Below are positions 21,288 to 33,799 of a DNA stretch of 64,000 nt, in pieces (within the stretch, counting starts at the first letter, position 1; each line of letters begins with the position of its first letter). Made by a program: the position numbers and the translations under genes. This DNA comes from Nitrincola sp. Its GTDB lineage: Bacteria; Pseudomonadota; Gammaproteobacteria; Pseudomonadales; Balneatricaceae. The stretch is from positions 31,603 to 95,602 of the forward strand of contig JAJOJN010000047.1 in assembly GCA_021208565.1 (NCBI GenBank), given 5' to 3'. The notes under the pieces were generated by a model. The model saw only the letters and a program-made list of their open reading frames with translations. It had not been told where the DNA came from and searched no databases.

Positions 21288-22342
21288 CCCGCTTTCTTGA
21301 GAAGGTAAACACCACCTAGCGCGCAGATAAGAATTGGAACTAGAGTTGCCAGCAGAGGGGGGAAGCCGTAGACACTACTGGCTGGCCCTAACAGATCTTG
21401 GGCAAACTTAAAAACAAGACCCAGAATAACGCCGGTCACGATTCTTTGTCCGATAGGTACACTACGTAGTGGACCAAACACAAAAGAGATCCCCACCAAC
21501 ACTAACGCCGCTATCGACAAGGGCTGCAACAGCTTTGCCCAAAAAGCCTGCAAATACACATCAGCACTGACACCTTGCTGTTGCAGGTAAGTTGCATAGT
21601 CCCATAAACCCGTTATAGACAGATCAACAGGTTCAACAACCACAATCGAAAGTAACTCCGGGGTTAATCCACTTTGCCAACGCTCTTCGCTACGCTGTTC
21701 AGTTTCCGTATGTTCATCGAAAATACGCGTTTCTGTAACCCTCTGAAGAACCCAAGCACCGTCTTGGTATTCACCAACTCTTGCAAAACTGCTTCGACGT
21801 AGTTGTAAATCATCACTGAATTCGTAACGAGTCACCCCATGAATTTTTTCACCGCTCTCCACGGCGTTAATAAAGATGAAGGTATTACCTTCCTTATGCC
21901 ATACTCCGCTGACAGAGTAAGTTCCCCCACCAGCCATCGCCACGGCTCGAACACTTTGCGCTCTTTGTTCAGTCACTGGAGCAATAAACTGGCCAAGCAC
22001 TAAACCAAACACAGCCATTAACATGACTGGCTTAAAAACAATAAACAGAATGCGAGCAGTAGAAACCCCAGCAGCACGCATCACAGTCAGCTCACTCTGT
22101 GATGCCATCATACCTAAGCCGATCATCACTCCAACTAAGGTACCTAAGGCAATATATTCGTATAAACGACGAGGCATGGTCCAAGTCACATAATGAACCG
22201 CTCCCGATAAAGTGTAGTGATCATTCAGGTTGCTCATCTGATCAAGAAACGCGATCAAAACATCCAACCCCAGAATGACCAGCAACACCACTAATACAGA
22301 CTGTAAGACCTGTCGGAATATATATCGCTCTAGAACGGTCAT
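21284..22342 (-). CDS. lptG: LPS export permease LptG
   Basis: MTVLERYIFRQVLQSVLVVLLVI...MASQSELTVMRAAGVSTARI; C-terminal TM cluster. Confidence 0.93.
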   Translation of the reverse strand: MTVLERYIFRQVLQSVLVVLLVILGLDVLIAFLDQMSNLNDHYTLSGAVHYVTWTMPRRLYEYIALGTLVGVMIGLGMMASQSELTVMRAAGVSTARILFIVFKPVMLMAVFGLVLGQFIAPVTEQRAQSVRAVAMAGGGTYSVSGVWHKEGNTFIFINAVESGEKIHGVTRYEFSDDLQLRRSSFARVGEYQDGAWVLQRVTETRIFDEHTETEQRSEERWQSGLTPELLSIVVVEPVDLSITGLWDYATYLQQQGVSADVYLQAFWAKLLQPLSIAALVLVGISFVFGPLRSVPIGQRIVTGVILGLVFKFAQDLLGPASSVYGFPPLLATLVPILICALGGVYLLKKAG

Positions 22343-23446
22343 GCGACTGCCTTACTAAACAGATGGCGCCAGCGCGAGAGTAAATACCCAAAGCCACGGC
22401 GCCAATAAGGGCTAAGATATATGAGATTCAGTGCAACTCCGACAAACAAGAGGTGCACACCCCATAACAGAAACGGAGAGTCTCCGGATTCTACATTTGA
22501 CCTTGCTGTTGTTAAAAAGGCCATATAAACCAGGTAAAGCAATATCGACGGGATCAATTTAGCAAAACGACCTTGTCTTGGGTTGGTATAACTCAAGGGC
22601 ACCGCCAGCAACGCCACCACTAGGGCTAACACAGGCAATGATATTCGCCAATGAAGTGCCGCTCTATCTCTTACGTTAGAAGATGCTAATAGCATCGCTG
22701 TAGGTTTAGCATCAACTTCTCGAATCTCCGCAGCCAACTCAGGCTCATCAAGTTGCACACCATATTCGGAGTAACGAATACGTGTCACTTCCGCCTCCCC
22801 TGGACGACCATCGTATCGATAACCGTTCAATAACACGAGGAAGCGCTGCTGTGCTTCAGGGAATAAACGACGCTCCGCCGCTTGCGCGATTAAGATATTG
22901 GGTCGTCCATCTTCACCTCTTCGGGAAAGAAAAACCTGCTTAAGTTGATCACCATCAACCGCCTCAGCATAGGTCACTTGACCCGATGACTGGGACAAAA
23001 AAACGCCCCGGTGTCACTAGCTCCAGCTCACTTCGAGCATCTTGTGCAGCTAACAACTGCTCTGCTTTTTGCAGACCTAGAGGGGTTAACCAAACACTAA
23101 GAATAAACACTAAAACAGCAACAACTGCGGTAGGACCATAAGCATAGGCTAAAAGACGATGATCACTAAAGCCTGTTGCTCTGAGGACAGCCATTTCACT
23201 GTCTAGGCACAAGCGTCCATAAGCCAGCAATATACCCAAGAACAAACCTAACGGAAGGAGTAATTCTAGGAAACCGGGCATGCGGAAAAGTAACACAAGC
23301 AACACAGCACCCGCCTCTAACTTTCCGGCTGCCGCATCGGACAAATACTTTATCAGTCGCGCACTGGTAATGATTAACATCAGTACCGCAGTGACTGCCA
23401 AGGTGCTTATAAGCACTTCACGAGTAATATAACGAAATATAATCAA
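22339..23446 (-). CDS. lptF: LPS export permease LptF (one +1 frame break)
   Basis: MIIFRYITREVLISTLAVTAVLMLI...LCLDSEMAVLRATGFSDHRL; halves join if A7 at 22997-23003 is A6. Confidence 0.92.
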
Positions 23447-23543: not shown

Positions 23544-25066
<1,523 letters not shown>

Positions 25067-25067
<1 letters not shown>

Positions 25068-28474: not shown

Positions 28475-28516
28475 AAAAAAAGCCTGCTGATTGAACATTT
28501 ATCAGCAGGCTTTTTT
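28475..28516 (+). terminator. Rho-independent terminator after valS
   Basis: AAAAAAAGCCTGCTGAT...ATCAGCAGGCTTTTTT. Confidence 0.9.
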
Positions 28517-28570: not shown

Positions 28571-28705
28571 TTACTTCTTTTTTGGATCTTCATTCATCAA
28601 AGAGCGCAGTTTGAAGCCAGCCCAAATCATCACGGCTGTAATACCGATAATGCCGATCATACTTGGCAGTAAGACTTCCCAGCTGTGCGTATCAATACCA
28701 AACAT
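28571..28705 (-). CDS. Small (44 aa) single-TM protein, absent from the supplied ORF track
   Basis: MFGIDTHSWEVLLPSMIGIIGITAVMIWAGFKLRSLMNEDPKKK, strong SD AGGGGGAG 7 nt upstream, plausible promoter. Confidence 0.7.
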   Translation of the reverse strand: MFGIDTHSWEVLLPSMIGIIGITAVMIWAGFKLRSLMNEDPKKK

Positions 28706-28734
28706 TGTTCATCTCCCCCTAAAAATGTGGGTTT

Positions 28735-28776
28735 AGATTAACTGCTTCTCTATAACGAAATATTGATATAGCTCAA
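28735..28776 (-). promoter_or_regulatory. Candidate FNR/Anr-dependent class II promoter for the 44-aa ORF
   Basis: On the minus strand TTGAG-CTAT-ATCAA (28776-28763; one mismatch to TTGAT-N4-ATCAA) and TAATCT -10 at 28740-28735, spacing consistent with a site centred near -41.5. Confidence 0.5.
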
Positions 28777-28890: not shown

Positions 28891-29092
28891 ATGGCTAATC
28901 GCTTTAAACGCTGGACACCAGAAGAAGTGATCAAGATGAATGAAGAAACCTTTATGGTTGAAGCATTAGATATGATCAAATTCTCTCCAGAGATTGATGA
29001 AACAGACCAGATGGTCTCGATCACTAAAAAAGAAACTGGAAGCGATTGAGCAAGCGCTTGAAGCGCGTCTCAATGCAATCAAAAGCAATTAA
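28891..29092 (+). CDS. Small hypothetical protein (about 66 aa after correcting one +1 break)
   Basis: MANRFKRWTPEEVIKMNEETFMVEALDMIKFSPEIDETDQMVSITKKKLEAIEQALEARLNAIKSN; AGGAG SD upstream; A6 run at the break. Confidence 0.55.
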
Positions 29093-32425: not shown

Positions 32426-33799
32426 ATGTCCGGTTACCGCATCGAAAAAGATTCACTAGGTGATGTTCGCGTACCTGAAAATGCACTTTATGGCGCACAA
32501 ACCCAACGTGCAATCGAAAACTTCACCATCAGCGATCTAAGAATGCCCAAGGCATTTATTATCGCGCTGGCTCAAATTAAGGCCGCCGCTGCGCAAACCA
32601 ATGCGGAGCTAGGCGTCTTAAGCAAGGAACATGCAATTGCTATCGTAAAAGCATCTCAGTGGATTCAAAAAAAACTTCGTACCCCAGGCCTTTCCTGTTG
32701 ATGTTTTTCAAACAGGTTCTGGTACCAGTACGAATATGAACATGAATGAGGTGATAGCTTCGGTTGTTAAACAGCAATCGAATCTAGATCTTCATCCAAA
32801 TGATCATATCAACCTTAGCCAAAGCTCTAATGATGTGATTCCGACAGCGATACACCTAAGCGCTTTGCACCATCTTGATAAATCATTATTACCCGCTCTT
32901 CACCATTTGCACACTCGCTGTACTCGCAAATCTGCCGAAGTGGCAGAAATTATTAAAATGGGCCGAACCCATTTGATGGACGCTTTGCCCATGCGAATGG
33001 AAGATGAAGTAAGAGCTTGGGGTATACAGATACAACAGGCTAAAAGAAGACTGGAATCTCTGCGCAACGAACTGATGAAACTTCCCCAAGGGGGCACCGC
33101 CATAGGATCTGGTTTAAATGCGCCTAGAGGTTTTTCTCGTCGGTTTTGCACCCATTTAAGCAGTATGACGACCTATCATCTATCCCCACCGGACAGCAGC
33201 TTTGCCGCACAAGCCTGCCAAGATACCGCCCTTGCGCTTTCTGGTGAGTTAAAAGCCACAGCAACAGCTTTACTGAAAATCGCTGAAGATCTTCGCTGGA
33301 TGAACTCAGGCCCCTACGCGGGTCTCGGCGAAATCTCGTTACCCGCCTTACAACCCGGCTCCTCCATTATGCCTGGCAAGGTAAACCCAGTGATTCCTGA
33401 AGCCATTATTATGGCTGTCGGACAGGTTAACGGTAATGACGCAAGCATCACATTTTGCGCCCAACGTGGAAATTTTCAGTTAAACACTGCACTGCCTTTG
33501 ATCGCTTTTAACTTACTGCAAAGCCTTGATATTTTGAGTAATGCTGCGCATACATTGTCTGACAAAGCGATTGCTGGCTTTACTGTAAACGAAGATAAGA
33601 TTAAACAGTCTTTACGGAAAAACCCTATTTTGGTGACCGCACTCAATCCAGTTATTGGCTATGAAAAAGCCGCACAGATTGTCAAAAAAGCCTATGAACG
33701 GATAGGGACATTATTGAGGTAGCGGCTGAGATGACGGATATTCCACTTGAAGAGTTAGAAAGGCTGTTAGATCCCAATCAAATTGCACAACCAAGCTAG
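32426..33799 (+). CDS. fumC: Class II fumarate hydratase (two frame breaks)
   Basis: [56 protein letters not shown]; breaks at A8 32667-32674 (+1) and about 33703 (-1). Confidence 0.94.

Follow-up and report, generated by a model that had tools for sequence, protein, structure and literature searches.

What does a 44-residue membrane protein encoded in Nitrincola DNA do, and which respiratory complex, if any, does it serve? The window, i.e. the whole stretch of 64 000 nucleotides that was analysed, is part of a Nitrincola-like metagenome bin; the host family, Nitrincolaceae, is marine/alkaliphilic. The original prediction combined a 44-aa open reading frame, a Shine–Dalgarno sequence, a TAATCT −10 element and a TTGAG-CTAT-ATCAA box, all of which were recovered at the positions given for them (Table 1), and the box, placed about 41 bp upstream of the predicted start, proved to be centred 41.5 bp from it. 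We refer to the protein as A1 and to the protein with its orthologues as the A1 family. The inverted repeat downstream of the gene is probably a bidirectional terminator common to A1 and the convergent valS.

Table 1. Sequence features of the A1 locus (positions in the window)
Feature	Positions	Strand	Remarks
A1 gene, 44-aa single-transmembrane protein MFGIDTHSWEVLLPSMIGIIGITAVMIWAGFKLRSLMNEDPKKK	28705-28571	minus	ATG at 28705, TAA at 28573-28571
Shine–Dalgarno sequence AGGGGGAG	28720-28713	minus	7 nt 5' of the ATG
−10 element TAATCT	28740-28735	minus	conserved at a fixed distance from the box in orthologues
Predicted transcription start	28728	minus	inferred from geometry only, box centre 41.5 bp away
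FNR/Anr box TTGAGCTATATCAA	28776-28763	minus	centre 28769.5; 22 bp to the −10 element
Inverted repeat with flanking A/T runs	28475-28516		found by sequence inspection

The open reading frame is a real gene. A1 was matched in most genomes of the same family at E ≤ 7e-7 in a first, smaller draw and was found in 96 of 117 Nitrincolaceae genomes in a larger one; it is present in all ten other genomes of the same genus and in named genomes of Nitrincola, Marinobacterium, Neptunomonas, Amphritea, Neptuniibacter, Pontibacterium and Aliamphritea. A second family, f15, also carries A1, whereas a class-wide draw (369 genomes) did not detect it in any other order sampled. The f15 loci (L087–L095) lie in two different contexts, following either an ABC-F gene or mnhG-like genes, and usually have FNR-like boxes. 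Asp5, Pro14, Ser15, Met26, Trp28 and Leu36 are invariant in the alignment, and the protein is under purifying selection, since dN is 0.015–0.22 while dS ranges from ∼0.45 to saturated. The two checks suggested with the original prediction, conservation in relatives and dN/dS, have thus come out in its favour.

Searches of Pfam, NCBIfam, PHROG and PDB sequences with both the single protein and the profile returned only noise, in agreement with the earlier remark that the protein was not recognised as a named family; matches of single members to MWFE and DUF3149 (E 0.02–0.08) are at chance level and were discarded. No Rfam match was found near the gene. The AlphaFold2 model consists of one helix (residues 6–38, mean pLDDT 84.7), and the hydropathy peak (2.16) lies at residues 11–29. 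By the positive-inside rule, the N-terminus is predicted to face outwards and the lysine-rich, positively charged C-terminus to be cytoplasmic.

Gene neighbourhood did not reveal a partner gene among the orthologous loci. The valS gene adjoins A1 only in Nitrincola and the neighbours differ elsewhere, apart from a small divergent gene that lies across the same intergenic region from A1 in 32 of the 49 loci; its product (28891–29092 of the window, plus strand) has ∼65 residues and a WTPEE motif, is frameshifted in the window and has no Pfam family. Apparent frameshifts split many conserved genes of the window (22339–23446, 23746–25067, 28891–29092 and 32426–33722), the split genes including lptF-like, pepA-like and fumarase-like genes as well as the small divergent one. 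The cco cluster (L116; ccoN, ccoG, ccoI and hemN) is also split, with ccoN in three pieces, and is intact in the relatives checked. These breaks are likely to be assembly or sequencing indels in the metagenome bin.

A single FNR box is weak evidence for regulation and could be due to chance, since the window holds ten matches to TTGATnnnnATCAA with at most one mismatch, against 3.8 expected. Genome-wide, FNR-like boxes are in use, as judged from 62 exact TTGAKn4MTCAA sites compared with seven for the reversed control pattern. What we regard as decisive for the putative A1 promoter is the box across the orthologues together with a −10 element at fixed spacing. An exact TTGAn6TCAA lies upstream of A1 in 49 of 49 named orthologous loci (compared with ∼0.35% per shuffled upstream region), with a −10 element (TAatCT) 22 bp downstream of it in 46–47 of the 49; when the first T of the box is counted as position 1, the initial T, the A and the last T of this element fall at positions 37, 38 and 42 in 46/49, 47/49 and 46/49 loci, respectively. 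Five outlier loci have the exact box further up, at −118 to −130, and the same five retain a degenerate box (8–9/10) between −69 and −73, followed at class II distance by a −10 element (TATTGT, TATTCT or TATCCT), so that practically every locus has the class II geometry. Among the f15 copies, exact boxes and the one-mismatch form CTGATnnnnATCAA both occur.

The class II position of FNR is −41.5 (PMC7349173), and the pattern at A1 corresponds to it in having a box centred at −41.5, a matching −10 element and an FNR gene in the genome. The FNR encoded by genome G000 has an N-terminal cysteine cluster and an ETISR motif, and its gene is located in the cluster ccoNOQPGHIS-hemN-fnr-apt, 10 kb from ccoN, which has its own FNR box (TTGATCCATATCAA) 0.3 kb upstream. 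The near-consensus FNR/Anr class II promoter of the original prediction is upheld as a sequence pattern, with its geometry conserved in orthologues; the A1 promoter presumably binds FNR and would respond to oxygen. The upstream half-site is TTGAG, not TTGAT, in 44 of 49 orthologues (promoters of L031–L079), and this conserved departure from the FNR consensus may tune activation.

Cytochrome cbb3 oxidases are major high-affinity oxidases of proteobacteria. The distributions of A1, ccoN, FNR and CydA were compared, by hand count, across the same 117 Nitrincolaceae genomes. A native ccoN is present in 102 of them, 95 of which carry A1; the seven that do not are five incomplete assemblies (67–94%) and two complete genomes (G015 and G023). 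None of the eight genomes lacking ccoN has A1, nor do any of the six genomes of genus g13, in which CcoN is very divergent (branch 1.8 versus a median of 0.066) and FNR is kept in all; one further genome, G332 (75% complete), has A1 but no detected ccoN. For the association between A1 and native ccoN, Fisher's test gave p = 4e-12 without correction for phylogeny. The cbb3 operon seen at L119 (G022) and in genus g13 is very divergent, has an FNR box nearby and appears to have replaced the native operon throughout the genus.

Such an association might also arise if A1 belonged to the FNR regulon but worked in a different low-oxygen membrane system (the bc1 complex, cytochrome c maturation and a transporter are candidates) or in general membrane stress, and tracked cbb3 only through a shared microaerobic life. 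Consistent with this, A1 is not linked to cco genes, and other roles are known for small membrane proteins linked to stress, for example YohP (PMC12719787). Furthermore, FNR was lost along with ccoN and A1 in genus g2 and in G019, so that these losses do not single out cbb3. Genus g13, however, allows cbb3 to be told apart from the other members of the FNR regulon, because FNR is kept there, the cbb3 is of a different type and A1 is absent. This contrast, together with the mutual exclusion of A1 and CcoM in G015 and G023 described below, leads us to consider a role in another system unlikely.

If cbb3 is the partner, the closest known protein in kind is CcoM, described from Pseudomonas, a 36-aa single-helix subunit of the cbb3 oxidase of Pseudomonas stutzeri (PDB entry 5djq, chain N) that stabilises the complex. 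Like CcoM, A1 is tiny, with a single transmembrane helix in fewer than ∼45 residues, is encoded as a single-gene unit and occurs with the same (Pseudomonas-type) CcoN (95/102 genomes with native ccoN versus 0/14 with ccoN absent or divergent). The promoters are also alike: most ccoM genes examined, with single-helix products of 36–43 aa, are single genes with a TTGATCCnGGTCAA-like FNR/Anr box ∼80 bp before the ATG and a TAATCT-like −10 element in the class II arrangement. In contrast, the two proteins have no detectable homology (hhalign of A1 against the CcoM profile A3, probability 0.5%), which keeps A1 out of the CcoM family, and in A1 an invariant PS precedes the helix core, which contains a tryptophan, and the tail is usually LMNED.

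Within Nitrincolaceae, the distributions of A1 and CcoM are mutually exclusive. Many families of the order encode a CcoM homologue, but no A1-positive genome has one as a stand-alone gene (0/49 of those tested in the family). Of 70 family genomes searched with the CcoM profile, only G023 (MYMDTIVFAGVGTVGLMLLFMGGLYLVLKKQAEKKGK) and G015 (MYMDTVVIAGLAVIVMALGFFGGLAYFIKKDNDHHQRPK) encode a stand-alone protein, in each case behind an FNR box, and these are the sole two complete genomes of the family that have native cbb3 but not A1. The profile had no match in G000, and matches in G346, G123, G315 and G295 were discounted as they lie inside reading frames of 115–269 aa. The CcoN tree groups G015 with G023 as sisters (91/98), so the swap counts as one evolutionary event; its Fisher p is only 0.014. 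Many families of the order have a native-like CcoN with neither A1 nor CcoM detected.

Alternatively, A1 could be a genuine CcoM orthologue that has diverged extremely far: the two agree in size, MF..D start, single helix and promoter, both have a lysine-rich tail, and homology signal fades fast in short helices. We consider this very unlikely in view of the profile–profile result and of a relative of A1 elsewhere in the genome, A2 (MSIDKYSM..PS.., G000:C86:3505–3627, L101), that is readily detectable (hhalign probability 97.5%, E 6e-12) and so points to a different origin from CcoM. The A2 family (45–49 aa, single helix; also at L100, L102–L104 and L096) differs from A1 in its locus, beside a GarR-like dehydrogenase gene; of the six copies checked, only those of G021 and G023 have an exact FNR box upstream. 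The match of G023 to A1 (E 2.5e-4) is this paralogue.

Two other small single-transmembrane proteins of oxidases, CcoQ (FixQ) and CydX, had supplied the logic of the original prediction. CcoQ is likewise linked to cbb3, but its gene lies between ccoO and ccoP, and G000, G016 and G026 each carry it separately; identity with CcoQ was rejected on this ground and on the lack of a Pfam family for A1. CydX is a component of cytochrome bd (PMC4325964), and a CydX-like role for A1 there is highly improbable despite its size, its single helix and the presence of CydA in G000, because no CydA match was obtained in at least nine A1-positive genomes of at least 95% completeness (e.g. G016 and G024), which argues that cytochrome bd is not the partner. 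The likely partner, judged from co-occurrence, is cytochrome cbb3 oxidase. The proposal of a single-transmembrane accessory subunit of a respiratory complex is supported by comparative genomics, with the difference that the matching known protein is CcoM.

Taken together, A1 is probably an unnamed, non-homologous counterpart of CcoM that most likely binds and stabilises cbb3 and is induced by FNR, and this is the most economical account of the data. In this account, A1 would span the inner membrane once, and a drop in oxygen would lead FNR to activate the class II promoter of its monocistronic gene together with the ccoNOQP operon, which has an FNR box of its own. A1 would then bind assembled or assembling cbb3, a contact suggested by the shared distribution, and by analogy with CcoM in P. 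stutzeri may stabilise the oxidase, substituting for CcoM both in Nitrincolaceae and in the second family. For the evolutionary history, we see roughly even chances that CcoM was displaced non-orthologously by an unrelated helix protein with the same promoter design, perhaps a duplicate of A2, in Nitrincolaceae and, independently or ancestrally, in the second family.

If this is true, it would suggest that the complex needs the helix and not its sequence, and that other cbb3 lineages without CcoM may hide unrelated, FNR-boxed small subunits. The combination of an FNR class II promoter with a small single-helix open reading frame would provide a search rule for missing subunits elsewhere.
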